Source of the DNA: Gracilimonas sp.
GTDB taxonomy: Bacteria > Bacteroidota > Rhodothermia > Balneolales > Balneolaceae
Length of the DNA: 64,000 nucleotides
Reading direction: 5' to 3'
Assembly: GCF_017641085.1 (NCBI RefSeq)
Contig: NZ_JAEPPI010000001.1
Coordinates: 744,001-808,000 of the forward strand
The position numbers and the translations under genes were made by a program. Shown piece after piece: positions 253 to 50,359 of this stretch (positions within the stretch are counted from its first letter, which is position 1; the number at the start of each line of letters is the position of its first letter). Under the pieces are notes generated by a model. That model was not told the DNA's origin. It worked only from the letters and a program-made list of their open reading frames with translations, and ran no database searches.

Positions 253-1650
253 TTAATAACCGGACATGAAGTTATAAACCGCATCGAACTGAGCTTGTCC
301 TTCTTCGAGAATCAGGTCCAGCTCATTAAATATTCGGCGCTGCTCGGCTTCATATTCTTCCAGGTATTTCCGTTCACTGGCTATACGCCGGTCTAAACGG
401 TCAATTTTTTGATCCAGTCCGCTTTCAATCGCAGAGAGGATTCCATCTGCTTCTGTGTATGATTCGGCCCGTGCCTTCATCATGGCCACCGGAGAGTTCT
501 CGTTGGTAAAGAAATTGGCAATCTGCTCGGGGTTCTGGTTCAGGATGTCATCCAGTTTAGAGGAATCATCGATAACCATCTTTCCGTTATTCTCGAACGT
601 GATGCCCATGTCGGCAAAACTGGCGACCTCACCTTCAGCAACACCGCCTAACGACAGAATAGCTGTTTGCCGTAAGTTAATAGTCAGATTTCGGACCGAT
701 CTCACTCCCTGAAGGGGGCCTTTATTTCCGGTTTCAGGATTAATGAATGTACGCTCCCGAATGGTCTCGTTCATTTCATTATAGGCATTGATGAAGTCCT
801 GCAGGTTAGATTTTGCAGCTTCAGTATCACGCTCAACCGTCATTTGTTCCGCTACTCCGGTGGCTTTCTTCATAGTGAAGGAGAGTCCTTCGATAGCATC
901 GTCAACGATATTTTCGGCGCGGTTAAAAGTCACTCCATCAATAATAAACTGAGCATCTAACTCGGCTTGGGGAGTGAGGTGAGTCATGTTCCCGGTAACG
1001 CCTGCTAATACACCGGTGGCTCCGCTAAATTGAATACGGTTGTCGTAGCCGGTTTCAAGACTTTTAAGGGAGAACTGAATATTTTCGCCATCCAGGTTAA
1101 AAACGCTGGCACTGGCTTCATCACCAAAGAGACTTTCAATTTCAGTTTCAAACGATTCCAGGATTTCCTGGTTGGTTTTATTTACCGTGCCGCCGCTGCC
1201 ATCGTCTTTGGTGGTTACAACATTTATAGTCTCAGTCTTGTCACCAATGGTCAGTGTCACGGAGCCATCTCCCTGTGCGGCGAGTTCATAGCCGGCACCG
1301 GTCATCGTTTCGGAGAGTGCGGTGTCGTTTTTAGCGAGCCTTTCTACGGTGATATTGAAAGCTGATTCATTATCTAAACCGGAAGCGGAGTTTACCTGCA
1401 CAACCGAATCATCACTGGAAGTAGTTTTAAACGGTTCAAAAGACCGGTTGCTTGGGGTTTCAAGCTCCTTAATGATATTCTCAAAATCAGAGATCGCCTT
1501 ACTCACGGTTCCAACGGCAGACTTTGATTCTTTCTCATCCCGAACCTGCACTTCCATCCGAAGCATTTTCTGGCTTTCAATATTAACAAGCTGCGTTACG
1601 AACGACTCGTACGAACTTGTTTGACTCATAAGGCTGGAAATAGATGCCAT
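253..1650 (-). CDS. fliD: FliD, flagellar filament cap (hook-associated protein 2)
   Basis: A 465-residue protein of usual FliD length. The N-terminus (about residues 1-65) is the helical FliD_N region with SSYESFVTQLVNIESQKM, the middle is a beta-rich variable domain, and residues about 240-465 form the FliD_C domain ending in a coiled-coil and FDAVYNFMSGY. FliD caps the growing filament and folds flagellin subunits arriving through the channel. It lies between fliS (30 bases upstream) and a fliT-position gene (12 bases downstream), all on the minus strand, and is probably expressed from the sigma-54-like site at 2136-2150. Secretion is by the flagellar export apparatus, so the absence of a Sec signal is expected. 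Confidence 0.95.
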   Translation of the reverse strand: MASISSLMSQTSSYESFVTQLVNIESQKMLRMEVQVRDEKESKSAVGTVSKAISDFENIIKELETPSNRSFEPFKTTSSDDSVVQVNSASGLDNESAFNITVERLAKNDTALSETMTGAGYELAAQGDGSVTLTIGDKTETINVVTTKDDGSGGTVNKTNQEILESFETEIESLFGDEASASVFNLDGENIQFSLKSLETGYDNRIQFSGATGVLAGVTGNMTHLTPQAELDAQFIIDGVTFNRAENIVDDAIEGLSFTMKKATGVAEQMTVERDTEAAKSNLQDFINAYNEMNETIRERTFINPETGNKGPLQGVRSVRNLTINLRQTAILSLGGVAEGEVASFADMGITFENNGKMVIDDSSKLDDILNQNPEQIANFFTNENSPVAMMKARAESYTEADGILSAIESGLDQKIDRLDRRIASERKYLEEYEAEQRRIFNELDLILEEGQAQFDAVYNFMSGY

Positions 1651-1679: not shown

Positions 1680-2006
1680 TTATTGCTGAACTACAGAGGG
1701 GGAAGGTTGTTTTTGATTGGCAACTTCTTCCCAGGTTTCTCTTAAAGGCTCCAGGATTTCACGGATTTCTTCAAACCGCTGCTTCCGGGCCAGGTCCTGG
1801 CAATACCGGTAAAGCTCAAAAAGCTGACCGGCGGGTTCATAATCAAAATTCAATCCTTGTATCAATTCAGATAGAATGGCTTTTACTTTTCCCTGATCTT
1901 CGCGGTAGGAGGCCTGTATAACCAGGTCATACATCTTCACTACCAGCTTCAGCGGGGAAGCATTCATCACAGATTGTTTTTGATAGACTAATTGTGGATC
2001 TCGCAT
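1680..2006 (-). CDS. fliS: FliS, flagellin export chaperone
   Basis: A 108-residue FliS from the ATG at 2006. The frame stays open to a TTG at 2060, but the family begins close to the YQKQSVMNASPLKLVVKMYD block (the FliS Y-x-V-x-A-S-P-x-K-L motif), so the ATG giving MRDPQLVYQK is preferred. FliS binds flagellin in the cytoplasm and keeps it unpolymerised until export. It is the first gene of the fliS-fliD operon. An in-frame C-terminal tail rich in Pro, Ser and Gln follows the helical bundle. The leader from the predicted sigma-54 start would be roughly 120 bases. Confidence 0.9.
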   Translation of the reverse strand: MRDPQLVYQKQSVMNASPLKLVVKMYDLVIQASYREDQGKVKAILSELIQGLNFDYEPAGQLFELYRYCQDLARKQRFEEIREILEPLRETWEEVANQKQPSPSVVQQ

Positions 2007-2356
2007 AATTTTGAAATTGATGAAAGTAACTCCCGGTTCTTTTCGGCCAAATACCGTCAAAACTTAAATTAGGAGTTTTTAATGTTTCTCAATCCATCAC
2101 AGGCTTAAAAACCTGTTGCGGACAAACTTGTTTTGGCAACTACTGTGCCAAAGTTGAAAACCATCGATCGGTAGTTTTTGAGGCAAAATGAATCCGGTTT
2201 GATACCTGACAGGCGGAAAAATATTCTGAAGCGGAAAATTTGGCCCTCACTCTGAGTCTCAAACAGGCGAATTACAAGATGGAATTGGGCTTTTATACCA
2301 TGGCATCATTTTTGGAAAAGAGAGGGTGTTGAAAACCAGAAAACTCATTTTCGATT
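2007..2356. other. divergent intergenic region between fliS and the glycosylation island
   Basis: 350 bases without a convincing gene. It holds the palindromic sigma-54-like element at 2132-2152. The rest (2160-2356) is the leader of the plus-strand TPR glycosyltransferase; I see no clear promoter, hairpin or Shine-Dalgarno there. Confidence 0.6.
2132..2152 (-). promoter_or_regulatory. sigma-54-type -24/-12 element upstream of fliS, inside a palindrome
   Basis: On the minus strand the sequence reads TGGCAC (2150-2145), five bases, then TTGC (2139-2136), with the invariant GG and GC separated by exactly 10 bases. This matches the sigma-54 consensus and would start transcription about 120 bases before the fliS ATG. 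The same bases form a perfect inverted repeat TTTGGCA-N7-TGCCAAA, and the plus strand also carries GG-N10-GC, so divergent use toward the glycosyltransferase genes or binding of a dimeric regulator is possible. An RpoN gene lies at 42910-44418. Recognised by eye only. Confidence 0.55.
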
Positions 2357-5281
2357 ATGAAAGTAGAATTAGCGCGCGCCCAAAAGTTATTAGATCAGAG
2401 ATACCCGGATCCGGATGAAGCGATAAAATTGCTTGACCCTTTGCTAAGGCGAGAGTCTAAACACTGGCTGGTCTATTACTTCCTGGGGATTGCTCAAATG
2501 CAGAAGTCCAATTTTGAGAAAGCCATTGGGTACTTCGAGAAATCCATCGGTGAGCATGATCAAAACTCCCAGACCTATTTGTTGGTAGCTCGCTGTTATT
2601 ATGAACTGCAGGATTTCGAAAATGCAGAGCGATTTGGGAAAGCGGCCGTACAGTTGAACCAGGAGCTGTTAGATGCCTGGATGTTTATGGGGCAGCTGTA
2701 CTGGGATCAGGCATTATTAAATAAAGCCATTCAATGTTACACTATTGCCAATAAACTGGACCCGAAGAATTACCTGATTGCTTACAATATCGGGCAAATT
2801 TATGCTGATCAGGGTGACTATAAGAAAGCCCTGGAATTGTACGATATTACCCTGCAAATGGAGCCAAAGCTAATTGATGCCGGTATCAAGAAAGCGCAGA
2901 TTTACCAGTCGATTGGTGAACATGAGCAGGCGGAAGAAGCCATCGGGAAAGTACTGGAGATTGATAGCGAAAACCTGCTGGCGTTGAGCGTACTCTCTCT
3001 GTTATATCGTGCCATGGGTAGATATAGCGAGGCCATTGAATTGAATGAACGTTTGCTGGATCGTTACCCTAACGACGGAAATGTGCGGGTAAATTATGCA
3101 CTCTGCCTTGTGGAAACCGGCCAATATGATGAAGCGGAGAAGAATTACCGGAGAGCATTAAAGGATGCCCCGGAAACGCAGCAGTCACTTTCCAACTATC
3201 TAATGGGGATACATTACAATCCCAAGCGAACCAAAGAAGAGATTTTTGAAGCTCATTCACTTTGGGATCAATATTATGCACCGGAAGAACGGCCCGAACG
3301 TCCGGTTCCTGCCAATAATGATAAAGACAAGAAACTGCGTGTTGGGTTTATCTCGGGTGGGTTTAAAAAACACCCGGTAGGCTGGATGATAACATCCGCC
3401 CTTGAGGAACTTCCCAAAGATGAAATTGCAACCTATATATATACCACCGATACCTACCACGATTCACTTACTAAACGCATTCGGGAAGCCAGTGCAAAAT
3501 GGACATCCGTAGTGGGATACAGCGATGAGGTGGTTGCTCAGATTATTAAAGACGATGAGATTGATATCCTGGTAGAGCTTTCCGGACATTCATCAGGGAA
3601 CCGTTTGAAAACAGTAGCTCTGGAACCAGCCCCAATTACCATAAAATGGGTGGGAGGTTTGTTCAATACTTCAGGGTTACAGTCGATGGATTACCTGCTG
3701 ACCGATGCGAAAGAATCTCCGGAAGGAGAGGAGCCATTTTACACCGAAAAATTGGTTCGTATGCCGGACGATTATGTTTGTTATACCCTTCCAAACTATG
3801 ACATTGATTTAGCAGAAGCTCCTGTTACCCAAAATGGATACATCACTTTTGGGTGTTTCAATAACCCTACCAAGATAAACACACAGCTTTTGTCTAAATG
3901 GGCAGAAATTCTGAAGCAAGTTCCTGATAGCCGTCTTTTTCTCAAGAGCAAACAGTACGACACGGAATTAGTTAGGGAGCGAATTACTCAACATTTGGCG
4001 GAGTGTGGTATTGAGGAAGACAGGGTGATTTTTGAGGGATATTCGCTCCATAATGAACTACTTGAATGCTACAATAAAATTGATATTGCACTGGATCCAT
4101 GGCCGTATTCCGGTGGATTAACAACCATCGAAGCTTTATGGATGGGCGTGCCGGTAATCACCAATTCAGGTCCTACTTTTGCGGGGCGACACTCTACTTC
4201 TCATTTGACGAATGCGGGATTCCCGGAATGGGTGACTAACAACTGGGAAGACTATATACAAAAGGCAGTTTCTCTTGCCGGTGATGTTGATCAATTATCA
4301 AAGTTAAGAGCTGAACTTCGGGGACGCCTATTAAGCTCCCCGGTATGCGATGCTCAACGCTTTGCCCGCAACCTGGCGAATGCCTTCCGCGAGATGTGGC
4401 TTCAGAGAGTGAAAGGATATGAGAAGAATCTTCCCGAAGGAGAATGGCAGGATCATATTTGGGTGTCACAGAAAAAAAAAGAACCCGAGACCCAAGCTGA
4501 ATCACTTCAAAACGGAATAAAAGACAAAGCGTTGAAGAAGGGGATTTATGTAAATAAGTCTCTTGTGAAGTTCACGGATACTCCATCAGATGTGGTAGAG
4601 GCCATAGTGAATACTCAGGATTTAAAGTATGCGGAACCATTGAGTGTGGCCATTCCGGAATCTGAGCTTTTCAGGTTGAGGAATATATTTGAAGATCATG
4701 AATATGGACTCCCTTCAGTTTTTCAGCTGAATGAGAACAGTGTGGTTGTTGATATAGGGGGAAATGTTGGGTCTTTTTCATTATATGCCCGGCAGTGGAA
4801 TCCGGATTGCCAGATCCACAGTTTTGAGCCCAACCCACAGGTGTTTCCACTTTTGGCTCACAATGTGAAAGGCCTTGATAATATTTCCATTACTAAGGTA
4901 GCCCTGAGCGATCAGAATGGTGAAATAAATCTGTTTCAGCACCCAAGGAATACAGGTCAGTCTTCAACGACTGTACACATGAAAGGCGGACATGAGGTTA
5001 CTGTTAAGATGCAGAAAAGCGGAGAAGCACTTGCTGAGAAAGGAATCAACAAGATCGATGTCCTCAAAATTGATACCGAAGGTGCTGAAGTTTCTATTCT
5101 GAAAGGCATGAAAGATCTGCTCATCAACACCGGCTTTATTATGCTCGAATATCATTCAGAAGCAGATCGCCGGGAGATAGATGCCATTCTATCCGGATTC
5201 AGCGTGTATGCATCGGGAGTTTCAGTTCCTTGTGAAGTTGGAACCATCAAGTACATCAACAACAGGATTCTAAACAAATAA
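2357..5281 (+). CDS. TPR / O-GlcNAc-transferase-like (GT41) / FkbM methyltransferase fusion
   Basis: A 974-residue three-part cytoplasmic protein. Residues 1 to about 290 are TPR helices. Residues about 328-690 match the GT41 O-linked GlcNAc transferase (OGT/SPINDLY) fold: GFISGGFKKHP with His339 in the place of the OGT catalytic-site histidine, FGCFNNPTKI, and LDPWPYSGGLTTIEALWMGVP from about 579. Residues about 795-960 are an FkbM SAM methyltransferase with VVDIGGNVGSF and KIDTEGAEVSILKGM. A Lys/Glu/Gln-rich linker joins the last two parts. GT41 enzymes transfer sugar from a nucleotide sugar to Ser/Thr of proteins; FkbM enzymes O-methylate sugars. Lying between fliS/fliD and flagellin, it most likely glycosylates flagellin and caps the glycan by methylation. 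Donor sugar and substrate are inferred. Confidence 0.85.
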   Translation: MKVELARAQKLLDQRYPDPDEAIKLLDPLLRRESKHWLVYYFLGIAQMQKSNFEKAIGYFEKSIGEHDQNSQTYLLVARCYYELQDFENAERFGKAAVQLNQELLDAWMFMGQLYWDQALLNKAIQCYTIANKLDPKNYLIAYNIGQIYADQGDYKKALELYDITLQMEPKLIDAGIKKAQIYQSIGEHEQAEEAIGKVLEIDSENLLALSVLSLLYRAMGRYSEAIELNERLLDRYPNDGNVRVNYALCLVETGQYDEAEKNYRRALKDAPETQQSLSNYLMGIHYNPKRTKEEIFEAHSLWDQYYAPEERPERPVPANNDKDKKLRVGFISGGFKKHPVGWMITSALEELPKDEIATYIYTTDTYHDSLTKRIREASAKWTSVVGYSDEVVAQIIKDDEIDILVELSGHSSGNRLKTVALEPAPITIKWVGGLFNTSGLQSMDYLLTDAKESPEGEEPFYTEKLVRMPDDYVCYTLPNYDIDLAEAPVTQNGYITFGCFNNPTKINTQLLSKWAEILKQVPDSRLFLKSKQYDTELVRERITQHLAECGIEEDRVIFEGYSLHNELLECYNKIDIALDPWPYSGGLTTIEALWMGVPVITNSGPTFAGRHSTSHLTNAGFPEWVTNNWEDYIQKAVSLAGDVDQLSKLRAELRGRLLSSPVCDAQRFARNLANAFREMWLQRVKGYEKNLPEGEWQDHIWVSQKKKEPETQAESLQNGIKDKALKKGIYVNKSLVKFTDTPSDVVEAIVNTQDLKYAEPLSVAIPESELFRLRNIFEDHEYGLPSVFQLNENSVVVDIGGNVGSFSLYARQWNPDCQIHSFEPNPQVFPLLAHNVKGLDNISITKVALSDQNGEINLFQHPRNTGQSSTTVHMKGGHEVTVKMQKSGEALAEKGINKIDVLKIDTEGAEVSILKGMKDLLINTGFIMLEYHSEADRREIDAILSGFSVYASGVSVPCEVGTIKYINNRILNK

Positions 5282-5285
5282 TATT

Positions 5286-6977
5286 GTGAAAGCAGAATTA
5301 GAAAAGGTCCGGCTTTTATTGGATCGGGCACAACCCGATGCTGATGAAGCAATAAAGGTTCTGAGCTTATTGGCAGAACAGGGTAATGAGCACTGGCTGA
5401 TTGATCACTTTCTGGGAATTGCCCACATGGTGAAAGCCAGCTATAAGAAGGCAGTCGTTTACTTTGAAACTTCTCTTACCAAGCATGCGGAAAACCCACA
5501 TGCTTACTTACAAATTGCCAAATGTTTTAACGCACTTTCAGATTTTGAACAGGCAGAGCGTTATGGAAAAGCAGCCATTCAGTTAGATCAGCATTTGCTG
5601 GAGGCCTGGATGTTTATGGGTGAAATTTACCGGGGGCAGTCTGATTCAGAAAAAGCCATTCAGTGTTTTACCATCGCTAATAAACTGGCCCCAAAGAATC
5701 ATGTTATTGCCTATAAATTAGCCGGAATTTATTCCGAAAAAGGGGACCTCAAGAAAGCAATGGAGCTGTACGATATTGCCCTACATATGCAGCCCAATTT
5801 CGAAGTAGCAAGAGCAGAGAAAGATAAGCTCTATACCTCTTTTGGAAGAAAGAGTAAGCCACGAGGCGGAAAATACATTCACCTATGCTTCAACCATTTG
5901 TATGCGAAGTCACTATCGGATATGCTGGCTTCTGTGAACGAGGAATATGATCAGCAGCATCTTCTATTTGTAGAATCACACTGGGCCATTGAAGAGTATA
6001 AACCTGATTTAAGCAGTAATGAACACGCTGCCTGGTTTAATCATGAGTACGATTTTCCAGCCATTATTAACCGATGCCTGGATTCAGATGTGGATGCAAT
6101 ATTTGTACACGGACTGTTTTTTAACTGGCAGAAAAAACTGATCAAAGAAATCGGTTCAAAAAAACATATTGGATGGATTATCTGGGGTGGTGATCTCTAC
6201 AATCCCATCAAAATAAAAGAGCCGATAGTAGATATTGTTGAACATATCGACAGTATCCACTCATTGGTTGAAGGCGATGTTGAAGTGTTTAAAAAACATT
6301 ACGGAGACTGCCCGACTTTCCGATTTGGTTATCCCTATCCGGGACTCTATGGAGATATTCCGGAGACTATCGAAAGTAACGATCGCCCAAGAATTATTGT
6401 AGGGAACTCAGGGGACTATTCAAATAATCATATCGAGATTTTGGAGGCACTAAGGACGAAGAAAGATGTAAGAAATTATGATATCCTGCTCCCGGTGTCC
6501 TACAACTTAATTCCGGAATATGAGAATGCGATCCTGAAATGGTTAAATGCAGCAGGGATGACGGATTGTGTAAAACTCATCAAAAATTTTATTGAACCGG
6601 ATAAATACAGAGTTCTCGTGGACTCTTCAGATATGCTGATTACGGCTCATAATCGCCAACAAGCCATCGGGAATATGCTTTTGTCGTTATACAGCGGTAA
6701 TGCTACTGTTCTAAAAAAGAAGATTACGGTGGGTGAAAAAGAGCAGATGAACCCAACCTGGAAAATGTTGAAAAAATACGGCTTGGATATATCGGGTTTT
6801 GAGGAGTTTAAAAAAGCACCATCTATACGATCTTTTCTGAGAAAGTCTCAACCTCAGAAAACCCGAAATCAACAAATTATCATCAATGAATTTGGTTTAG
6901 AAACCCGGGCAAAAGATCTGGTAACATCCTGCAGCACAATCAGAGAAAGGATAACTGAACACGCGCTGGTGAATTAA
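5286..6977 (+). CDS. TPR protein fused to a WecF-like (GT56) aminodeoxyhexose transferase
   Basis: A 563-residue protein starting at GTG 5286, four bases after the previous stop. Residues 1 to about 190 are TPR repeats closely paralogous to those of the upstream gene: both contain AWMFMG, KAIQC-[YF]-TIANKL and ELYDI-[TA]-L at matching places. From about residue 200 the protein resembles WecF/RffT (GT56), the Fuc4NAc transferase of enterobacterial common antigen, with IIWGGDLYN near 298-306 and VGNSGDYSNNHIEILEAL near 372-389. Known WecF acts on a lipid-linked acceptor at the membrane; here a TPR block replaces any membrane association, suggesting a protein acceptor. Shared TPRs imply the same acceptor as the upstream enzyme. 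The GT56 assignment is by motif recognition and the acceptor is inferred. Confidence 0.75.
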   Translation: MKAELEKVRLLLDRAQPDADEAIKVLSLLAEQGNEHWLIDHFLGIAHMVKASYKKAVVYFETSLTKHAENPHAYLQIAKCFNALSDFEQAERYGKAAIQLDQHLLEAWMFMGEIYRGQSDSEKAIQCFTIANKLAPKNHVIAYKLAGIYSEKGDLKKAMELYDIALHMQPNFEVARAEKDKLYTSFGRKSKPRGGKYIHLCFNHLYAKSLSDMLASVNEEYDQQHLLFVESHWAIEEYKPDLSSNEHAAWFNHEYDFPAIINRCLDSDVDAIFVHGLFFNWQKKLIKEIGSKKHIGWIIWGGDLYNPIKIKEPIVDIVEHIDSIHSLVEGDVEVFKKHYGDCPTFRFGYPYPGLYGDIPETIESNDRPRIIVGNSGDYSNNHIEILEALRTKKDVRNYDILLPVSYNLIPEYENAILKWLNAAGMTDCVKLIKNFIEPDKYRVLVDSSDMLITAHNRQQAIGNMLLSLYSGNATVLKKKITVGEKEQMNPTWKMLKKYGLDISGFEEFKKAPSIRSFLRKSQPQKTRNQQIIINEFGLETRAKDLVTSCSTIRERITEHALVN

Positions 6978-6978
6978 G

Positions 6979-7794
6979 ATGGAATCAATAGTGCAAGCAA
7001 CCGCAACTTACACGAATATAGATGCCGTTGAAATCGAAGTTGGAGAAGGTACGGTTATAGAAGAGTCGGCAGTGATTAGGGGATTGAACGGACCGGCCAC
7101 AACCATCAAAATTGGAGATAATTGCTACATCGGCAAGAACGTGCAGATTATCTGTGATCACTTTGAGCTGGGGGATTACTCCAAAATTCATCACAACACT
7201 AATGTGCATGGCTACAAACCCTGTGTTATCGGGCATAACGCCTGGGTCGGGCAGTATTCGATCATCGACAGTATTGGTGGGACGACCATTGGTAATAATT
7301 GCGGGATAGGGGCACACTCTCAGCTATGGTCACACATCAAGTATGGAGATACCCTGGAAGGCTGCCGGTTTTTAAGTGAAAGCTCACTGGCTGTAGGTAA
7401 CGATGTATGGTTTGTGGGCCACTGTATTGTTTCCCCCATCAAAGCCGAAGATAAATCGATGGCGATGGTTGGCTCGGTGGTGACTAAAAACATGGAGTAC
7501 AACCAAATTTATGCGGGCTCTCCGGCTCGTTCTCTTTCAGAAAAAATTGGCCCTCAGTTTGAAGAGGTAAGTCTCGATGAAAAGATGGAGAAAATGAACA
7601 TGTACATGAAAGAGGCAGGAATTTCAGAAGAGAAGGTTAAGGTGGTAAGCAACATTACGGAATTCAATTTCGATGACGAGGTCAGCTACTTCGATGTGGC
7701 TTCCAGAACCTATACCAAAAAGCGCTCCACGGACGAAGTACAATTCATGAAGTATCTGCTTCCTGAAAAAGGAAAATTTGTGCCCTATGAGTAA
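6979..7794 (+). CDS. left-handed beta-helix (hexapeptide repeat) acyltransferase
   Basis: A 271-residue protein beginning one base after the upstream stop. Residues about 20-190 contain hexapeptide repeats of the [LIV]-G-x-x-x-x type (IGDNCYIGKNVQI, IGHNAWVGQYSII, IGNNCGIGAHSQL, VGNDVWFVGHCIV, MVGSVVTKNM, YAGSPARSL), the left-handed parallel beta-helix of trimeric acetyl/acyl-CoA transferases. Next to a WecE-like aminotransferase its likely role is N-acylation of a 4-amino-4,6-dideoxyhexose or its nucleotide form, comparable to VioB or WecD. The C-terminal 80 residues are outside the helix and unrecognised. Its last 8 bases overlap the next gene, indicating translational coupling. Confidence 0.75.
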   Translation: MESIVQATATYTNIDAVEIEVGEGTVIEESAVIRGLNGPATTIKIGDNCYIGKNVQIICDHFELGDYSKIHHNTNVHGYKPCVIGHNAWVGQYSIIDSIGGTTIGNNCGIGAHSQLWSHIKYGDTLEGCRFLSESSLAVGNDVWFVGHCIVSPIKAEDKSMAMVGSVVTKNMEYNQIYAGSPARSLSEKIGPQFEEVSLDEKMEKMNMYMKEAGISEEKVKVVSNITEFNFDDEVSYFDVASRTYTKKRSTDEVQFMKYLLPEKGKFVPYE

Positions 7795-9064
7795 ATACAA
7801 AATTCCTTTTAACAAACCATTCATAACCGGCAACGAACTTGAATACATTCAGGATGCGGTAGATTATGGGAAGATTTCCGGGAATGGAAAGTACACTCAG
7901 AAAATTCATCGGTTTTTTGAGCGGCAGTTTGGGTTTAAGAAATGCCTGCTTACTACATCCTGCACTGATGCTCTCGAAATGGCTGCTATCCTATTAGATG
8001 TGGAACCCGGTGATGAAATCATCATGCCGTCCTATACTTTTGTTTCCACAGCTAATGCTTTTGTTTTGCGTGGTGCGGTTATTCGTTTTGTGGATTCCAG
8101 AAAAGACCACCCCGGAATGGATGAGGATAAGATTGAAGAGCTGATCACCGAAAAAACAAAAGCTATTGTAGTAGTACACTATGCCGGAGTTGCTTGTGAT
8201 ATGGACAAAGTGATGGAAATAGCAGATCGATATAACTTGTTTGTTGTGGAAGATGCTGCCCAGGCCATTAACAGTTATTACGAACATGCGGATGGAGTTA
8301 GGAGTCCGCTGGGCTCCATAGGACATTTGGGGACATTCTCATTCCACGAAACCAAAAATATTATGGCCGGCGAAGGGGGGATGCTGATTGTAAATGATGA
8401 TCGTTTTGCCGAGAGGGCCGAAATCATTTGGGAGAAGGGAACCAACCGAACGGCATTCTTCAGAGGTGAAGTGGATAAATACGGCTGGGTAGATATCGGT
8501 TCTTCGTTCTTGCCTTCAGAACTGAATGCTGCTTTTCTATATGCACAGTTGATGAACCTGATTCGGATTCAGCAAAAGAGAATGTGTATTTGGAACCGAT
8601 ATCATAGAGGTTTGGTTGAAGCCTGCCGGCGCTTGGGAATCCGCAGACCTGTCATCCCACAGTATGCTACCAATAATGGCCATATGTATTATGTGGTATG
8701 CCAAGGCACACAACAACGCGACGAGCTTATTACATATTTAAAGGAGAGAGACATATTGAGTGTATTTCATTATCAGTCGCTGCACTCTTCAAAATTCTTT
8801 ATAGACAAACACGATGGAAGAGAACTTCCATATTCTGATTTGTATTCGAAAAACCTCGTTCGCTTTCCTCTTTACTACGAGCTTAATAAAGCTGAACAGA
8901 ACTACATTATTCAACAAATAAATGAATTGAGTGTTAAGGGAACAGAAGACCAAATGAAGAAGGATAGTATAACAGAAACCGATAATCTGTTTTGCAACAT
9001 CAGGTCGGGCAAGGTTTCTCTCAATCAATTAAAAACACCGCTAATACAGGACTACAAGATATAA
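7787..9064 (+). CDS. WecE/RffA-like dTDP-4-keto-6-deoxyhexose aminotransferase (DegT/DnrJ/EryC1/StrS)
   Basis: A 425-residue PLP enzyme from ATG 7787, overlapping the previous gene by 8 bases; an upstream in-frame TTG at 7778 is less likely. It follows E. coli WecE closely: GDEIIMPSYTFVSTANAFVL, VVHYAGVACDMD, VEDAAQAI, and FSFHETK with Lys190 as the expected PLP Schiff-base lysine. WecE converts dTDP-4-keto-6-deoxyglucose to dTDP-Fuc4N with glutamate as amino donor; VioA makes the epimer Qui4N. The exact product cannot be read from sequence. The last ~45 residues extend beyond the E. coli enzyme and are unrecognised. It is placed between the putative acyltransferase and a methyltransferase. 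Confidence 0.85.
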   Translation: MSKYKIPFNKPFITGNELEYIQDAVDYGKISGNGKYTQKIHRFFERQFGFKKCLLTTSCTDALEMAAILLDVEPGDEIIMPSYTFVSTANAFVLRGAVIRFVDSRKDHPGMDEDKIEELITEKTKAIVVVHYAGVACDMDKVMEIADRYNLFVVEDAAQAINSYYEHADGVRSPLGSIGHLGTFSFHETKNIMAGEGGMLIVNDDRFAERAEIIWEKGTNRTAFFRGEVDKYGWVDIGSSFLPSELNAAFLYAQLMNLIRIQQKRMCIWNRYHRGLVEACRRLGIRRPVIPQYATNNGHMYYVVCQGTQQRDELITYLKERDILSVFHYQSLHSSKFFIDKHDGRELPYSDLYSKNLVRFPLYYELNKAEQNYIIQQINELSVKGTEDQMKKDSITETDNLFCNIRSGKVSLNQLKTPLIQDYKI

Positions 9065-9066
9065 TT

Positions 9067-9744
9067 ATGGAGAAATCGAAAAACTTTAAGCAGCAGGAAA
9101 TTCAACTCATCATTAAGAGGGTTTCTCAATTTCTGCAGAATAACAGAGCAGAAAGGGAAGCTCAAATACCTAAAGTTGCTCTTAAAAACGAAAATGTAGC
9201 CAATTGCACGCTGCTTCTGAACCGGGAAATGCTGCTGGAGAAAATGAAAAAGAATTCAGTGGTTGCGGAAATTGGAGTAGATGAGGGGCATTTTAGTCGT
9301 CTCATCCGGAATGTAGTTCAACCCAAAAAATTTCATTTGGTAGATATATGGGGTACCGATCGTTTTCATGAAGGTAAATACCAGGATGTGAAAGCCTGTT
9401 TCCAGGATGAAATTGACGAAGGAAAAGTGCAAATACACCGAAAACTTTCAACGGAGGCGGCAGTTGACTTTGAAGATGGATATTTCGACTGGATATATAT
9501 TGATACCGATCACTCATATGAAACTACCCGGGACGAACTTAACAAGTACGCTCCAAAAGTTAAAAAGGGCGGGATTATTGCTGGTCACGACTATGTTACA
9601 GGGAATTGGATTACTACCTACCGATACGGTGTGATTGAAGCCGTACACGAATTCTGTGTGAAAAACCATTGGGAACTACTGTATATAACGGTTGAGCCAA
9701 CAGAAAATCAGAGTTTTGCTATTCGAAAAATTCAGGATTCTTAG
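9067..9744 (+). CDS. class I SAM-dependent methyltransferase (Methyltransf_24 type)
   Basis: A 225-residue protein starting at ATG 9067, two bases after the wecE-like stop; an upstream start at 8992 would overlap that gene by 73 bases and add no conserved sequence. Motif I is VVAEIGVDEGHFSRLI, and the motif FDWIYIDTDHSYETT followed by KKGGIIAGHDYV is typical of the Methyltransf_24 group that methylates sugars and small molecules. As last gene of the glycosylation island, before a strong terminator, it probably O- or N-methylates the flagellin sugar. The N-terminal 50 residues are a charged helical extension. The substrate is inferred from neighbours only. Confidence 0.8.
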   Translation: MEKSKNFKQQEIQLIIKRVSQFLQNNRAEREAQIPKVALKNENVANCTLLLNREMLLEKMKKNSVVAEIGVDEGHFSRLIRNVVQPKKFHLVDIWGTDRFHEGKYQDVKACFQDEIDEGKVQIHRKLSTEAAVDFEDGYFDWIYIDTDHSYETTRDELNKYAPKVKKGGIIAGHDYVTGNWITTYRYGVIEAVHEFCVKNHWELLYITVEPTENQSFAIRKIQDS

Positions 9745-9780: not shown

Positions 9781-9817
9781 AAAACCGGCTGTCATAATAT
9801 GATAGCCGGTTTTTTTA
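9781..9817 (+). terminator. rho-independent terminator after the glycosylation island
   Basis: A 15-base-pair stem (9781-9795 with 9799-9813, one G-U pair, three-base loop) is followed by a T run to 9817. It ends the plus-strand island and isolates flagellin transcription. Confidence 0.9.
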
Positions 9818-9975: not shown

Positions 9976-10002
9976 TTAAGAACGCTATTTCACCTACGAT
10001 AA
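9976..10002 (+). promoter_or_regulatory. candidate sigma-28 (FliA-type) promoter of flagellin
   Basis: TTAAG at 9976-9980 and TACGATAA at 9995-10002 resemble the sigma-28 TAAA / GCCGATAA elements with about 15 bases between. Transcription would begin near 10009, about 50 bases before the flagellin ATG. No sigma-54 GG-N10-GC pair was found here. The match is partial. Confidence 0.4.
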
Positions 10003-10059: not shown

Positions 10060-11022
10060 ATGGCAAGTTTTGGAGATTTAAACAGAGTAAATACTAACGT
10101 TCAATCGTTAGACTCACAGTTATCACTGAACCGAGTAAACCGTGACCTTGCTGACAGCCGTATGCGTATGTCAACCGGTCTTAAAATCAACAAAGCAGAA
10201 GACAACGCTGCCGGGTACTCGATTGCAACCAAATTGAAAAGTAGAACAGCCGGACTGGAGCAAGCCCTTCAGAACGTAGGCGATGCCAAGTCTGTACTCG
10301 ATATTGCGGAGTCCAGCTTCGACACCATCATGGACAGCCTCGTTGAGATGAAAGGTCTGGCTACCCAGGCTGCCAACGATACATTAGGCGACACCGAGCG
10401 TGGCTACATCGGCGACCAGATCAAAGCCCTGGGCGACGACATTAACGAAATCGCTAACCAGACCGTATTCCAGGACTTCGATCTGCTGAACGGTGACGCT
10501 GCTGGCGACATGTCCGGATCACTTGACCTTACCTTCCAGGTAGGTGAGCGTGCTTCTGACACCATCAGCACTTCCATCGACGCTGTAAACGTTGGTGAGC
10601 TGTTTGCTGCTTCCGGAGATGCTTCTCTGGGTGCTACAACAACCGCCGGTGGTGGTGCTGCTGCAGGTGCTGCGATTTCAGCTACTGCGGCTACAACCAG
10701 TGGACAAGGTGCATTGACTTTCGCTGCTACAGCAACTTCTTCTGACTTCCGTAGCTTCCTGAGCTCTGTTGACAGTGCAATTGATGAAATGTCGAACCGA
10801 GTGAACGACATTGGTATTACTCAGTCTTCTCTATCTGTACGTGAAGAGACCTTGTCTGAGTCGATCAGCGCAAACGAATCTGCCAAGTCTCGTATCATGG
10901 ATACCGACTTTGCGAAAGAACAAAGTAAATCTGTTAAGCTTCAGATTCTGCAGCAGACTGCAACATCATCTCTGGCGCAAGCTAACATGGGACCACAGTC
11001 TGTACTTGGATTCCTCGGATAA
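10060..11022 (+). CDS. fliC: flagellin, filament subunit
   Basis: A 320-residue flagellin with ATG 10060 preceded by a good Shine-Dalgarno (AAAGGTG). The conserved N-terminal D0/D1 region (residues 1 to about 140) carries MSTGLKINKAEDNAAGYSIA at about 37-56, and the C-terminal D1/D0 region (about 235-320) ends MGPQSVLGFLG. The middle is very short and beta-like, with a Thr/Ser/Ala/Gly-rich stretch at about 185-230 that offers many O-glycosylation sites. It forms the filament and is exported through the flagellar apparatus with FliS, then folded under FliD. A glycosylation island lies immediately upstream. Codon use is more biased than in the neighbours (GCT, AAC, CTG), fitting high expression. 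Confidence 0.95.
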   Translation: MASFGDLNRVNTNVQSLDSQLSLNRVNRDLADSRMRMSTGLKINKAEDNAAGYSIATKLKSRTAGLEQALQNVGDAKSVLDIAESSFDTIMDSLVEMKGLATQAANDTLGDTERGYIGDQIKALGDDINEIANQTVFQDFDLLNGDAAGDMSGSLDLTFQVGERASDTISTSIDAVNVGELFAASGDASLGATTTAGGGAAAGAAISATAATTSGQGALTFAATATSSDFRSFLSSVDSAIDEMSNRVNDIGITQSSLSVREETLSESISANESAKSRIMDTDFAKEQSKSVKLQILQQTATSSLAQANMGPQSVLGFLG

Positions 11023-44716: not shown

Positions 44717-47700
44717 TCACCAACTGAAATTAACCTGGTCGTTAATTTTCTGCTCCATCAGGTGAATAACCGGAGTTCTGAACGTGTTGTTATTATCGAT
44801 CTGCTTTCGAATGGACAGGACTTCCTCCCAATCGGAGTACACCTCCTCAAGAACCAGCACAATGTTCTCCCGCTCATCGATCAGTATTTTTGAATCGAAC
44901 CCGAATTCTTCCTCAACCCGGATGGCGTAAAGCACAGCCTGTCGTTCAGTTTCAAATTCTCCCAGCTGCAAGATAAATTCAAAATCAACATTGATCATAG
45001 AGGCAGGAAGTTCCTGTTTTGCGATAAAAACATCAGAGATGGCTGTGGAACTCAAAACCTTATTTCTTTCCTGTTTTGCCAATCGTTCAGAACTGAATGG
45101 ACCCAGCCTGACTTTATACATCAGGGTATTGGGATCCTGATAACGATGCAGAGTGAAATTATACCTGGATTCCAGGTCAGTCATATAAGAATCTGCCCGA
45201 TGTGGATTCGTGAAGGCAGCAAATTGAAGATCGTACCGAAAGCCACCCGGCTCGTAATTGGTTGCTACCGTTTCGTAACATTGATTCAGTACCGCCACAT
45301 CTGGGTAATTTGAAGACAAATTCTGCGTGAATTGAGATGCACGGCTCAGCTCTTGGAAAAGACCGGTTCTGACCGCATACAACTCCCGTGGTTCGTTATA
45401 TACAATGTAGGAGTCGGAATCGCGGCTGTAGTTTTTAACAATCCTTGTGGCAGCTTCAAACGATGAAAAAGCAGCCAGCTGAACACCATATCGGCATTTG
45501 TTCAGCGTAAGCCTGTCTACTGAAATATTGTATTCCAGTGAAATACCTCCGCCACTGTTGGCAGTTTGAGCGATGTTGGTTCCGGCCGTAATGGGTTCTT
45601 CATTTACCTGATAATCTTTAGGAACCAGCAGAATTTGCAGTCCTTCCACAAAATCACCTTCAGGAATGGCCTCCACTTCAAACTCTATTTTCTCGGGGAT
45701 GGATTTCACATTTAAGATGTCCAGTTGGGAGGGATCTACCCGGAGTATATATTGGCCGGGAGGGAGTTCATAATCGTAAAAACTACCATCCGAGAATGTT
45801 CTCAATTCTTTGCTGAAATCCCCGTTTTGTTGATCTAAAAGTAGTTTGAGTCCCCCAATTCCTGAACTTTTTGCATTTGCGATTTGTCTTTTTACGGATC
45901 CTTCCATAACTCCGGACATATAGAAGGGTATTTCCACCTTTTTGAATCGATTGGGGTCAGTTATAAGCCCAAATTTGTCAAATTCAGGCACAAGCATAGG
46001 ATTGTCTAGCCCCCCCTCATTCATTTCCATATTGTAGTAGAAGTAGGGCTGCATTTGTGTGAAATAAAGAATCCCATTTTTTTGAATACTGCTCGCACCC
46101 GAGCGTCTTAATCTAACGGCATTTCCACTTATTGGCTGATCCTCATCTTCCTCAAAAGATCTGTTTCCGTTATTATCTACAAATAGTTGAATAGCTGTAC
46201 CGGATCGGCCGACCTGATCTCTGCTGGTAAATAAAAAGTTATTGTAGTTGGTGTCGTATCCTATCGACCCGCGTACGTTCTGTGTGAAACTGCTGTTGTT
46301 TCTTATGTTATTGTAAGTAGTATTGGTACGGATTTTATTGAGGTCGATAACAAGGCTGAATCTAATCGTGTTGTACTCTGCAATGAAATTTCGACCTACA
46401 GAGAGCTGGAATCGTCCCTGATTAAAAACATTTCTCGAAATTAAAGCCTCAGCTGATTCGAACTGGTTTAAGGTGGGCTGATATCGCATCTGTGCACGCA
46501 GAAAAACGCCACGCATATATGGAGGCAGATTTCTGTTGCGGGATACATTATAGGTAGCGGAGGTCTCAACATATGAAGTTGTTGTTGGGTTGAAGAGATC
46601 CACTTTACCGGCGAACCGGTCACTGTAACCAACCCTTAGATTCATTTTACCAATTCGTGAATTGGCATCCAGCCGCAGAGTAGTGGCATTTGTGGTTTCT
46701 CTGATCCTGGAAAAAGCAGAAGCCCTGACATTGAAAGGGGTGCCAAACAAATTAAAGGGATAAAAAGCGGAAGCTACCAGTCTTTTATCATCATTGGAAG
46801 GGTTGTAGATGCTAAAGCCTCCTGTGTACTCCGTGAAGTCAAAATTCAGACTTGCTGAGTTAGGAAATATTGTATTAAAAACACCACGATAATAGGCCTG
46901 AGAAGCAGCCTCAAATGTTAATATATAACTCGAGAGGATTCTTGAGGAAACGGAAGAGGTGAAAGTAGGAAGTCCGTCATTTAACCCTTCATAATACTCA
47001 ACGCCGGCTTTGGCTGTTAGCCAATCGGTGATTCCATAAGAACCTGAACCTTGGGCCGTCAGGTTCTGATTGGTATTACCAACCACCGGGTTATCAAGCT
47101 GCCCAAGGTTTACAGAATAGTTAAATACTCCGTTTGGCTGAAAGGTAAAAGGTACTTGTATACGTTCAGAGCGTTCGATAATCTGGCCGGTTGGGCCATA
47201 AATTTTTAAATCAAGTTGGGAAGATCCGTACGTGATGGGAGTTAAAAACCGGTAATCACCCATTTCATTTGCTTGTTGGAAGTCGATAAGGGCATTGTTC
47301 ATATATAATTCAACTTCCGACTGGGGTATAGTGCTGCCCTGAACTACATACTCATCAAACAGTCGACGGGGCTCTATAGGTTCGTTAGTAAGCCTGATCC
47401 CGGTATAGCTATTTCTGGCGACACCATCCGAATTTGTTTGGCCAATAGTGATTTTTGAAAGCCACTGTTGGTCACGATACATGTAACGCCAGCGAAGGTT
47501 ATCGGTAGAGATATTGGAAAAGTTGCTGGAATAACTTCCAAAGATACTTCCTTGCAAATCGCCACCGTACAACTGAATTCCTAAATTTGTATTAGCATTG
47601 TATACATTATTTCCGGAATTCAGGTTGGCTGATAGATTATAGTCCACAAAGCCACCATCAATAAAAGGCCGTTCCCTGCCATACCGCAGGTCATATCTGA

Positions 47701-48232
47701 CATCCTGATACCTATTATCATCAGCAAGTCGCCTTCTTTGAGCACGGATAGCTTTGGCTATTGCCGGAAGCTCTTTTTCAGTTTCTAAATTCAGCGTTAG
47801 ATTATTGAAATCGATGGTGAAATCAAGTCCAAATGCCTCATAGAAAATATCGGCCCGCAGATAAGAATCAATTTCTTGGATCAGGTAATCATCAGCTGTG
47901 AGTTGAATGGTCCTATCTCCGAATACTATCTGATTTGATTGCAAATTTATCTGATAAGGAGTTTGCTTAAGGCCAAATTTACCGTTTACAGATAAACCAT
48001 TCACGGTATGGTCAATATCAAAGAGGGAGAAAAGTTCGCTGATGGGAAGGTAAAATTGGTCATTTTTATAATAGGAAATAACAACCGAACCTATAATGCC
48101 ACGATGACGAAATTCAAGATATACCTCAATTTCGTCATTGTTGTTGCCTTGAGCTTGAGAATTATCGGGTTGGAGGAATAAGCATAAGGCAACAATATTG
48201 AAGGTTAGTATAAATTTTAACCAATGATTCAC
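44717..48232 (-). CDS. chaperone-usher outer-membrane usher with C-terminal SPOR-like repeats
   Basis: A 1171-residue outer-membrane protein. Signal peptide (ends NSQAQ); usher N-terminal domain (about 30-150, EIEVYLEFRHRGIIGSVVIS); a beta-barrel from about 170 with the plug region near VVQGSTIPQSEVELYMNN; then AIQLFVDNNGNRSFEEDEDQ and a carboxypeptidase-regulatory-like domain (FSDGSFYDYELPPGQYILRV). The last 260 residues are unusual: three SPOR-type repeats begin at CRYGVQLAAFSSFEAATRIV, YDLQFAAFTNPHRADSYM and FEFILQLGEFETERQAVLY. SPOR domains bind denuded peptidoglycan. The gene starts with GTG 48232 overlapping the chaperone stop as GTGA. Ushers assemble pilins exported by Sec; SPOR repeats would tie it to the cell wall or division sites. 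Confidence 0.8.
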   Translation of the reverse strand: MNHWLKFILTFNIVALCLFLQPDNSQAQGNNNDEIEVYLEFRHRGIIGSVVISYYKNDQFYLPISELFSLFDIDHTVNGLSVNGKFGLKQTPYQINLQSNQIVFGDRTIQLTADDYLIQEIDSYLRADIFYEAFGLDFTIDFNNLTLNLETEKELPAIAKAIRAQRRRLADDNRYQDVRYDLRYGRERPFIDGGFVDYNLSANLNSGNNVYNANTNLGIQLYGGDLQGSIFGSYSSNFSNISTDNLRWRYMYRDQQWLSKITIGQTNSDGVARNSYTGIRLTNEPIEPRRLFDEYVVQGSTIPQSEVELYMNNALIDFQQANEMGDYRFLTPITYGSSQLDLKIYGPTGQIIERSERIQVPFTFQPNGVFNYSVNLGQLDNPVVGNTNQNLTAQGSGSYGITDWLTAKAGVEYYEGLNDGLPTFTSSVSSRILSSYILTFEAASQAYYRGVFNTIFPNSASLNFDFTEYTGGFSIYNPSNDDKRLVASAFYPFNLFGTPFNVRASAFSRIRETTNATTLRLDANSRIGKMNLRVGYSDRFAGKVDLFNPTTTSYVETSATYNVSRNRNLPPYMRGVFLRAQMRYQPTLNQFESAEALISRNVFNQGRFQLSVGRNFIAEYNTIRFSLVIDLNKIRTNTTYNNIRNNSSFTQNVRGSIGYDTNYNNFLFTSRDQVGRSGTAIQLFVDNNGNRSFEEDEDQPISGNAVRLRRSGASSIQKNGILYFTQMQPYFYYNMEMNEGGLDNPMLVPEFDKFGLITDPNRFKKVEIPFYMSGVMEGSVKRQIANAKSSGIGGLKLLLDQQNGDFSKELRTFSDGSFYDYELPPGQYILRVDPSQLDILNVKSIPEKIEFEVEAIPEGDFVEGLQILLVPKDYQVNEEPITAGTNIAQTANSGGGISLEYNISVDRLTLNKCRYGVQLAAFSSFEAATRIVKNYSRDSDSYIVYNEPRELYAVRTGLFQELSRASQFTQNLSSNYPDVAVLNQCYETVATNYEPGGFRYDLQFAAFTNPHRADSYMTDLESRYNFTLHRYQDPNTLMYKVRLGPFSSERLAKQERNKVLSSTAISDVFIAKQELPASMINVDFEFILQLGEFETERQAVLYAIRVEEEFGFDSKILIDERENIVLVLEEVYSDWEEVLSIRKQIDNNNTFRTPVIHLMEQKINDQVNFSW

Positions 48233-49056
48233 CTAAGCGTGTATTTGGTTGTACTTGAAACAGGCTGCATTTGAACGATATCGTCATCGGAAACATCATT
48301 TCGTTGAGTAATGAACTCGACCCGTAATGTATATTCTCCAGGCGGAGTATCACCAATTAAGAGATCTTGTTTATGCGTTCCACTAAAATAGAGAGTAGTA
48401 GAGTTTCTGGCTTGCTGTATAACATTTCCTTGCGAATTTATAAGAGAAGTTATAACAGATCCAAGAAATGGGGAATTACCGGTACGCTCAAAATCAGTAA
48501 AAACCTCTAATACACCATCATCTGATAAACGAGGGGTTATTTCATTGATTGCGATACCAGTATTCACAGTCCCTACTTTATAGTAAAGGCCGGTTATCTG
48601 CTCAACAATAAGCCCTAAACTCGCGGTAACAGTTTCTGTTTGTTCAATCTCAACTGGTGGTGCTTCCGGTGTTGCACTGGTTTTAATTCTTGCCCAGTAG
48701 GTGCCGTCTTCCAAATCATTTGGAGCAGCAATCCTAAGCCGAACTATTTGTCGCTGGCCCGGATTTAATACAAAATTCTGTGGAAAAGCACGCACGTTTT
48801 CTGCGATAGAGTGTTTTTCAGCACTTATAGAGTCATCTTCAACTATTCGACGTTGCCCATCATCATTCAAGGCACTATAACTGAATACAAAATCAACAGA
48901 AATTTCCTGATTTTCATTGGAATTGTTGATCACCATGTAGGTTCCAAATCTGGAGTTGTCCTCTACAAATAAATTTGTTGGGGCAATAGTAACTTGAGAT
49001 AACCCGGCAGATAAAGTACATAAGCCAAGAAGTACTGTAAGTAATAGCTTTTTCAT
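48229..49056 (-). CDS. PapD-like periplasmic pilus chaperone
   Basis: A 275-residue exported protein (signal ends SAGLSQ). Two Ig-like domains: the N-terminal has RFGTYMVINNSNENQEISVDF and the F-G strand region FVLNPGQRQIVRLRIAAP seen in PapD-family chaperones; the C-terminal half is more divergent. It is followed directly by the usher gene (GTGA overlap) and preceded by the major pilin gene. It would hold DUF4402 pilins by donor-strand complementation. The classical family Arg-Lys pair is only partly visible, so the alternate or archaic type is more likely than classical P-pilus type. Confidence 0.8.
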   Translation of the reverse strand: MKKLLLTVLLGLCTLSAGLSQVTIAPTNLFVEDNSRFGTYMVINNSNENQEISVDFVFSYSALNDDGQRRIVEDDSISAEKHSIAENVRAFPQNFVLNPGQRQIVRLRIAAPNDLEDGTYWARIKTSATPEAPPVEIEQTETVTASLGLIVEQITGLYYKVGTVNTGIAINEITPRLSDDGVLEVFTDFERTGNSPFLGSVITSLINSQGNVIQQARNSTTLYFSGTHKQDLLIGDTPPGEYTLRVEFITQRNDVSDDDIVQMQPVSSTTKYTLR

Positions 49057-49156
49057 AACTCTATAGATTAGTGAATTCCCGATGCAGGTAATAGTAATGA
49101 TTGTTTCTAACTTTTACCATCACTTATTAATACTCCTTGATTGCTTTATTCTGCTT

Positions 49157-49190
49157 AAAAAAAAAGCCCTGCCGATAGTGGCAAGGCTTT
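49157..49190 (-). terminator. strong terminator after the major pilin
   Basis: An 11-base-pair stem (49163-49173 with 49180-49190, one G-U pair), six-base loop, and on the minus strand a run of nine T. It separates the major pilin from the chaperone-usher genes, so their expression depends on readthrough or a separate promoter in the 150-base gap. Confidence 0.85.
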
Positions 49191-49208
49191 AAATCTAAAT
49201 AATCAATC

Positions 49209-49754
49209 TTAGTCGTAATACACTGAAAGTGTAACGTCACCGGAGTATTGACCTTGGTAATTACCAGCAGTAGCAAGGGTATTAAGAGTACCACCTACAT
49301 ATACATAAGCAGTGGTAGCTCCAGTTGTAACGCTTGCAGTTCCTCCTGAGAAATCAGTTCCACCATCAACATCGCCATCAGTTTCAGTATAGGTAGCTGT
49401 AGCAGAAAATGGGATATCGTCTTGTGCAGTACCACCGGAAAGGTTAGGAGTACCTTCTGGTGTTAAATTAGCAGGAGCGCTAAGTGAAAGGACAATAGCT
49501 TGTCCATTAGCCAAACTAGTCATCTGGAATTTACCGAGATTAGCTTCATTTGCAGTACTCAGAGCTTCAGTCACACCAGCATCAACATCGCCATCAAGTA
49601 GAGTTCCAAAATCAAGGCCTCTAACACCAGTCAATGTTACATCAGTTACAACATTAGCAGAAGCTGTAATACTTGCTTGTCCTTGAGCCATGGCAGAAGT
49701 TGCAGTTAAAGCAACCAATGCGAGTGCAGATAAAAGAGTTTTGAGAGTTTTCAT
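49209..49754 (-). CDS. major DUF4402 pilin (chaperone-usher subunit)
   Basis: A 181-residue secreted subunit: signal peptide ending SAMAQG, then a DUF4402-type Ig-like beta domain with GLDFGTLLDGDVDAGV and the C-terminal strand QYSGDVTLSVYYD. The C-terminal beta strand with alternating hydrophobics is what a PapD-type chaperone caps. Compared with the three accessory subunits it is low in charged residues, rich in Ala, Thr and Gly, and flanked by its own gap (605 bases upstream) and terminator (18 bases downstream), all of which suit an abundant major pilin. The family assignment is strong; its status as major subunit is inferred. Confidence 0.82.
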   Translation of the reverse strand: MKTLKTLLSALALVALTATSAMAQGQASITASANVVTDVTLTGVRGLDFGTLLDGDVDAGVTEALSTANEANLGKFQMTSLANGQAIVLSLSAPANLTPEGTPNLSGGTAQDDIPFSATATYTETDGDVDGGTDFSGGTASVTTGATTAYVYVGGTLNTLATAGNYQGQYSGDVTLSVYYD

Positions 49755-50359
49755 AATCGTGAGATTTTATTGTTTGTTTAATTTCTGAAAGAAAATTATT
49801 GATCTTCTGAAAGCCTTCCTAGTTAGATACTCTTAATTAAAACGTCCTAACTTTTTGAGCTGAAACCATGTAATCAATGTCCTAGATGATAATTTATGCG
49901 TCTAAAATACCCATGTGGCTTCAGACTTATATTTAGATTTCTTTAATGTTTGGGATTCCACTTTGATAATACGAAGGAATTTGAAGGTTGGATTTAATCA
50001 TTAACCATTTTCTATCTTTTCCCTTCAACAATGGAATAGTGACCTTTTTTGTGGTTAAAGCTTGTATGGGGTAGGGCAACATCCGGGTTTTTGAACCATG
50101 ATTTACTTGATTAGAGGATTGGAAGGATGGAGTTGAGTAATCAGGGAAATCCGGCAATCCTATCCATCAAGGTTCAAATAGGAGCATGCATTAGTTACTT
50201 TGAAGCAGCTCTCAGAATAATTTTAGCATCATCGTCAGCTAATGATGAGGTTTGTTAAAGTAAACAAGCGATTTAATGGCAGGTGTATAGGAGAAGGGAA
50301 TGTTCCTTCAAGCTGACAAAGTAGTACCATATATTATGCAAGGGGTGCCTCGAAAAGTA
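49755..50359. other. 605-base gap upstream of the major pilin
   Basis: No convincing gene. A 74-codon minus-strand frame (49933-50157, TTG start) has no signal peptide or pilin features. The gap should contain the promoter and leader of the major pilin gene. I could not identify a riboswitch or conserved operator. Confidence 0.55.

Follow-up and report, generated by a model that had tools for sequence, protein, structure and literature searches.

We analysed a window of 64,000 nucleotides from the 3.49 Mb genome of a Gracilimonas sp. of the family Balneolaceae (C1:744001-808000; genome label G000), in which a putative flagellin O-glycosylation operon of five + strand genes (window positions 2357-9744) lies between the divergent fliS-fliD pair and the flagellin gene fliC. 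As read from the open reading frames (ORFs), the genes are separated, in order, by 4, 1, −8 and 2 nucleotides, the third value being an overlap counted from the ATG at 7787. Gene 1 (2357..5281) encodes tetratricopeptide repeats (TPR, residues 1-280), a GT41 glycosyltransferase domain (about 300-690) and an FkbM methyltransferase domain (796-935). It is followed by gene 2 (5286..6977), with a TPR domain (residues 1-180) and a GT56/WecF-like glycosyltransferase domain, gene 3 (6979..7794), for a hexapeptide (left-handed beta-helix) acyltransferase, gene 4 (7787..9064), for a WecE-type dTDP-4-keto-6-deoxyglucose aminotransferase, and gene 5 (9067..9744), for a class I S-adenosylmethionine methyltransferase of the Methyltransf_24 family. 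The ORF of gene 4 opens with a TTG at 7778, but ATG 7787 is the more likely start, as is ATG 9067 for gene 5. An earlier note on this DNA, made from the letters alone, had described five tightly packed genes for two TPR glycosyltransferases, a WecE-like aminotransferase, a hexapeptide acyltransferase and a methyltransferase, set between FliS/FliD and flagellin; the ORFs with their near-zero spacers, the Pfam and NCBIfam matches and the flanking genes all agree with this description. None of the five proteins has a transmembrane-like segment, which supports the cytoplasmic location that the note gave to the TPR enzymes.

The divergent neighbour of the island is fliS, for the flagellin chaperone (1680..2060, − strand; Pfam FliS 48.4 bits), whose true start is probably the ATG near 2006, given that the ORFs of relatives begin at residue 19. 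Beyond it lies fliD, for the filament cap (253..1650, − strand), recognised from its ORF and from homologues beside fliS in the loci of relatives. At the other end, a hairpin with a 15-pair stem and a following T-run (9781..9813, + strand) resembles an intrinsic terminator of the operon, and a pattern scan found a sigma-28 (FliA)-type promoter-like element, TAAG-N15-ACGATAA (9977..10002, + strand), ahead of fliC (10060..11022, + strand; Pfam Flagellin_N 102.6 bits, Flagellin_C 57 bits), which encodes the proposed acceptor.

Domains were called with Pfam and NCBIfam models and their own cut-offs. In addition to its TPR, gene 1 matches Glyco_transf_41 with 163.6 bits (cut-off 25) and the FkbM model TIGR01444 with 104.6 bits (cut-off 37.7), so that a single soluble protein joins a TPR half to a GT-B half, the layout of the flagellin transferase FlmG; the likeness assessed here is one of architecture. 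The genome has no match to PF01973 (MptE-like/DUF115), the only model for Maf-type transferases that was run. The GT41 domain keeps Lys506 and His411, the aligned counterparts of K665, the nucleotide-binding lysine, and H495 in SPINDLY (SPY). Its family membership, together with the GlcNAc-type donors suggested for enterobacterial enzymes (PMC4875605), would suit a plain O-GlcNAc transferase (OGT) using UDP-N-acetylglucosamine (UDP-GlcNAc). We regard this as possible but doubtful, because among solved structures the O-fucosyltransferase SPINDLY matches best (333 bits, against at most 238 bits for animal OGT) and because Tyr584, in a WPYSGG motif, aligns with the stretch of SPY Tyr744 (Cys917 in human OGT), a residue linked by the authors to the exclusion of GlcNAc (PMC9715652). 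GDP-fucose was also considered as donor and rejected as unlikely, since no GDP-mannose dehydratase (Gmd) scores above cut-off in the genome. The position of Tyr584 and the lack of such a Gmd leave dTDP-rhamnose and UDP-glucose as candidate donors. We propose that gene 1 is a flagellin O-glycosyltransferase that is also a glycan methylase.

Gene 2 matches Glyco_transf_56 (PF07429) with 53.4 bits (cut-off 25), next to its TPR. The model of the GT56 domain (predicted local distance difference test, pLDDT, 90.8) matches GT-B enzymes in the PDB, which predicts with high confidence that the domain folds as a GT-B enzyme; by sequence, the domain has no convincing solved relative. The protein does not qualify as a WecF equivalog (118.3 bits against a cut-off of 457, and 62.1 against 525), and we propose, from sequence, that it is a predicted transferase of N-acylated Fuc4N (4-amino-4,6-dideoxygalactose). 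Genes 1 and 2 have TPR domains with about 50% identity to each other, and in a tree of 32 TPR domains of the family those of both genes from four genomes (G000, G187, G398 and G089) form one clade with support 95/94, within which genes 1 and 2 are sisters (support 92/89 and 93/69). This indicates that gene 2 acquired its TPR by duplication within this branch. In FlmG it is the TPR half, and not the catalytic half, that binds the flagellins, confers specificity and is required for modification (PMC7591256). That a separate GT56 chain carries the same TPR copy is explained most simply if it acts on the same acceptor as gene 1.

The product of WecE is dTDP-4-amino-4,6-dideoxygalactose (dTDP-Fuc4N). 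Gene 4 exceeds the cut-offs of both models for this transaminase (NF008687, 553.9 bits against 375; TIGR02379, 518.4 against 434.85), its closest solved structures are WecE (PDB 6blg/4piw), and the genome has no other close WecE, the next matches being 32-41% identical over part of the sequence. Gene 3 has a hexapeptide match of 39.5 bits (cut-off 27), and we propose that it N-acylates the amino sugar. The nucleotide-sugar precursor could be supplied by rmlA, rmlD, rmlC and rmlB, which are grouped at contig positions 814864-818009, some 7-10 kb past the window end, with rmlA and rmlB about 60-65 kb downstream of the operon; a supply by rmlA/rmlB was a check suggested with the original annotation, and both genes are there. 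RmlA, being a short form, reaches 239 bits where TIGR01207 requires 361, and rmlC and rmlD were named from sequence and position.

The earlier note had modelled the product on the flagellin of Pseudomonas syringae, with an N-acylated, methylated 4-amino-4,6-dideoxyglucose (Qui4N, modified viosamine), and the enzyme classes are indeed those of the viosamine island, namely aminotransferase, acyltransferase, methyltransferase and transferase (PMC3927599), with a weak match of the hexapeptide enzyme to VioB in the PDB (23.2 bits). The results do not support this part of the note, and we now consider the viosamine model improbable: the aminotransferase passes both WecE models and has WecE as its nearest solved structures, while it stays far below the model for DesI, a Qui4N-forming type (TIGR04427, 98.7 bits against 650; the Qui4N test was made with DesI only, not VioA). 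The partner transferase is WecF-like, from a family known for Fuc4NAc transfer, and across bacteria 67 of 78 loci with a WecF-like gene also have a WecE-like one nearby, which suggests a natural pair. The combination of a WecE-type gene 4 with a WecF-like gene 2 makes N-acylated Fuc4N the likelier sugar, and the product of the operon is probably this sugar rather than viosamine. Fuc4N had not previously been reported in flagellar glycans, as stated in 2026 (PMC13317340).

The connection with flagella was examined in 92 genomes of the family, of which 35 carry flagellin-domain genes and 29 a strong GT41 homologue (a weak match in G054, E = 5e-5, was left out of the count). The GT41 gene is present in 28 of the 35 flagellin-bearing genomes and in 1 of the 57 that lack flagellin (G077, 41% identical), the remaining genomes having flagellin only (7) or neither (56); the Fisher p-value of 5e-16 overstates independence, since the genomes are related. 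In all 28 genomes with both, the two genes share a contig at a distance of 1.3-20.4 kb (FlgL being counted where flagellin is elsewhere). Of the 25 loci read, 22 place the GT41 gene next to fliS in divergent orientation, less than 1 kb away; the three others have a different arrangement (G396), one gene in between (G092) or no fliS match (G397). Within genus g11, G433 has fliS, TPR-GT41 and fliC, and G313 has fliS and fliC with nothing between them. GT41 presence is also clustered on the flagellin tree (3 changes, against a shuffled mean of 10.1), which we do not use as proof, as relatedness alone can give it.

The slot between fliD-fliS and fliC, filled with an island that includes GT56 and WecE, is common to six relatives. 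The recurrence of the same gene neighbourhood is more than chance, and its retention makes a role in flagellin modification very likely. The idea of a flagellin-linked glycosylation island is thereby strengthened, as is its synteny with fliC: in six of six island-bearing relatives the island lies beside flagellin, and not mostly away from flagellar genes. The earlier picture of a five-gene unit needs trimming, since the core with GT56 and WecE is kept but gene 5 (Methyltransf_24, 57.6 bits, cut-off 26.3) occurs in only two of the seven island-bearing genomes, this one and G. mengyeensis (G278), and is not matched at the loci of G187, G089, G398, G046 or G127. Gene 5 is outside the conserved core and is accessory; no solved relative of this methyltransferase was found.

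The same comparison bears on whether these are surface polysaccharide genes (O-antigen or enterobacterial-common-antigen-like) that came to lie beside fliC by accident. Elsewhere, no flagellar gene is matched within about 10 kb in 71 of the 78 WecF-like loci, and several of the WecF-like genes sit in polysaccharide-like loci (L056, L057, L061). The island, however, has no flippase, polymerase or membrane transferase, its TPR-bearing versions at flagellar loci adjoin flagellin in each of the six relatives, the GT41 core tracks the presence of flagellin, and the genome has a separate sugar-enzyme cluster at C1:231000-262000. We therefore judge an accidental neighbourhood very improbable.

Several other features were seen in the flagellin regions of relatives. 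In G. mengyeensis, L050:12809-17823 holds extra genes for an AMP-ligase and a short-chain dehydrogenase, both similar to acyl-chain genes in the viosamine island, and for an unassigned 256-amino-acid protein and a sulfotransferase-like protein. Sulfotransferase-like proteins of 330-350 amino acids, with a TGTTSIQ motif near the N-terminus and no Pfam match, are encoded by the flagellin islands of five or more relatives (L065:12439-13437, L071:570-1613, L072:495-1490, L074:1022-2020, L082:8592-9587) and may possibly sulfate the glycan. The flagellin island of G227 includes a PPDK/PEP-utiliser-like protein of 1036 amino acids (L078:5416-8526), unusual in this place. The locus of G398 (L062 and L063) is split: one contig holds the island with one flagellin, and a different one carries a second flagellin together with the Rrf2 and ric-like genes, which looks like a rearrangement through the flagellin repeats. 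In the Gracilimonas genome itself, contig C3 stops (at about 921904-922073) within another flagellin gene, which agrees with the window FliC in all of its first 56 residues; the assembly probably broke here because flagellin is repeated.

Most relatives have a GT41 protein of 1400-2070 amino acids, arranged as TPR-GT41-methyltransferase-linker followed by a variable module. The linker has no Pfam name and is 34-70% identical to that of G. mengyeensis; it is a segment of about 180 amino acids, apparently helical and conserved in most of these enzymes (L050:5924-10726, residues 1020-1230). The C-terminal module is FkbM in five genomes (G250, G396, G151, G282, G364), GT56 in three (G278, G046, G127), GT2-like, either alone or joined to a second GT-B or a methyltransferase, in six (G092, G395, G394, G270, G293, G360; for G270, the second module is assigned by resemblance to G395) and GT-B in G211, and it is absent from the shorter proteins, of about 690-700 amino acids, of G433, G434 and G437. 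Gene 1 of Gracilimonas lacks the inner methyltransferase and the linker, and its FkbM domain is closer to the C-terminal FkbM module of G250 (51%) than to the inner methyltransferase.

These arrangements also bear on the order of action, because GT41 and GT56 occur in one chain with a single N-terminal TPR both in the three relatives with TPR-GT41-methyltransferase-GT56 and in Achromobacter, which suggests that they act one after the other. With a TPR copy of its own, each Gracilimonas enzyme could choose its own sites, so that genes 1 and 2 would glycosylate different Ser/Thr residues directly and no disaccharide would form. The one-chain proteins make two independent modifications unlikely, and so does the characterised WecF, which extends a glycan. 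Comparable loci are found in other bacteria. In Achromobacter sp. HZ34, a FliA-like sigma factor and flagellin are followed by a TPR-GT41-GT2-GT56 protein of 1654 amino acids (GT41 51% and GT56 35% identical). Clostridium thailandense has fliD, fliC, a GT2-TPR-GT56 protein of 1164 amino acids, WecE and then RmlB-like and RmlA-like genes (by N-terminal sequence). In Aquabacterium parvum and in a Comamonadaceae isolate, the order is GT56-WecE, TPR-GT41, fliC, fliD and fliS. In G357, a distant member of the same phylum, fliC-fliS-fliD precede GT2, WecF-like, formyltransferase and WecE genes. Two Balneolaceae also encode TPR-GT2-GT56 proteins of 1275-1276 amino acids away from flagellar genes and with no adjacent WecE (L053:9440-13270, L054:6978-10805).

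We propose, with a probability of about 0.8, that the island is a cytoplasmic flagellin O-glycosylation operon that acts before export and in two steps; the acceptor, the transfer order, the identity of both sugars and the methylation sites are inferred. RmlA and RmlB would provide dTDP-4-keto-6-deoxyglucose, which WecE would aminate to dTDP-Fuc4N and the hexapeptide enzyme would N-acylate. The TPR of gene 1 would grip flagellin before export, while its GT41 domain would attach the first sugar to Ser/Thr and its FkbM domain would then O-methylate the glycan. The TPR copy of gene 2 would grip the same flagellin, for GT56 to add N-acyl-Fuc4N as the second sugar, and gene 5 may add a strain-specific methyl group. 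For the Balneolaceae as a whole, we lean towards a scheme in which the TPR-GT41-methyltransferase-linker core holds flagellin and lineage-specific modules (FkbM, GT56, GT2, GT-B) build a species-specific glycan, the Gracilimonas branch having split this line and given GT56 its own TPR, with Fuc4N as the outer sugar.

Several points weigh against the proposed operon function. The sigma-28-type pattern precedes 55 of the 64 flagellin genes tested but is absent upstream of the island and of all 26 GT41 genes examined, so that co-regulation with fliC is not shown. The central region of flagellin has a similar Ser/Thr content in GT41-positive (25.1%) and GT41-negative (25.9%) genomes. Gene 2 lies so far under the WecF cut-offs that its donor is not certain. 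Finally, FliD or another filament protein could be the target.

Further along the window, ORF reading of 44717-52051 gives an Usher-like protein of 1171 amino acids whose C-terminal segments are repeated, together with a chaperone-like protein and a number of small secreted paralogues, possibly a chaperone-usher type surface system. A giant secreted protein of 1952 amino acids (57876-63734) shares a similar sorting-domain-like C-terminus (YPNPFNP type) with one of 1657 amino acids at L059:1564-6537.

Flagellin islands with GT41-methyltransferase proteins, WecE in flagellar regions (PMC6993521; PMC13317340) and TPR-guided flagellin transferases (FlmG) are already known. The fusions had been noted as apparently undescribed, which may stand for the TPR-GT56 enzyme but not for GT41-methyltransferase fusions, known from enterobacterial flagellin islands (PMC4875605). 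Neither the TPR-GT56 enzyme, the one-chain GT41-methyltransferase-GT56 or GT41-methyltransferase-GT2-GT-B proteins and the TPR duplication, nor any paper on flagellin glycosylation in Balneolota was found in the literature searched, which is weak evidence as it covered few subscription papers. If the proposed function is true, flagellin O-glycosylation extends to Balneolota, Fuc4N is predicted as a flagellar sugar, and the family offers a natural series of one-chain, module-swapping protein glycosyltransferases in which TPR grafting could probe acceptor specificity. The natural TPR duplication would be evolutionary evidence for the idea, derived from FlmG, that TPR halves set acceptor specificity.

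Among the known systems, FlmG of Caulobacter crescentus is likewise a cytoplasmic flagellin O-glycosyltransferase with TPR and GT-B halves and a flagellin-binding TPR, but it has 596 amino acids and uses pseudaminic acid, whereas Gracilimonas has GT41 with a methyltransferase and a second TPR transferase (PMC7591256). The viosamine island of P. syringae also yields a dTDP-4-amino-4,6-dideoxyhexose, N-acylated and methylated, as outer sugar, but with a VioA aminotransferase, a VioT transferase of 1173 amino acids and beta-ketoacyl enzymes in place of the WecE-type enzyme and GT56 (PMC3927599). Category 1 islands of Clostridium butyricum have RfbB and RffA (WecE) in the flagellar region, a predicted Fuc4N and a TPR-bearing transferase, which is a predicted glucosyltransferase with a C-terminal TPR (PMC13317340). 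The WecE/WecF pair of the enterobacterial common antigen similarly serves dTDP-Fuc4N formation and transfer, but that WecF acts on a lipid-linked glycan, while gene 2 scores far short of the WecF cut-off and has a TPR. The flagellin islands of Enterobacteriaceae (De Maayer and Cowan 2016, PMC4875605) share a SPINDLY-type GT41 fused to a methyltransferase and adjoining fliC, DegT-type aminotransferases, acetyltransferases and FkbM proteins. They lie between fliC and fliA, and TPR and GT56 are unmentioned in the text, whereas the Gracilimonas island lies between fliS and fliC, has a GT56 enzyme with a duplicated TPR, and carries sugar genes that point to Fuc4N.

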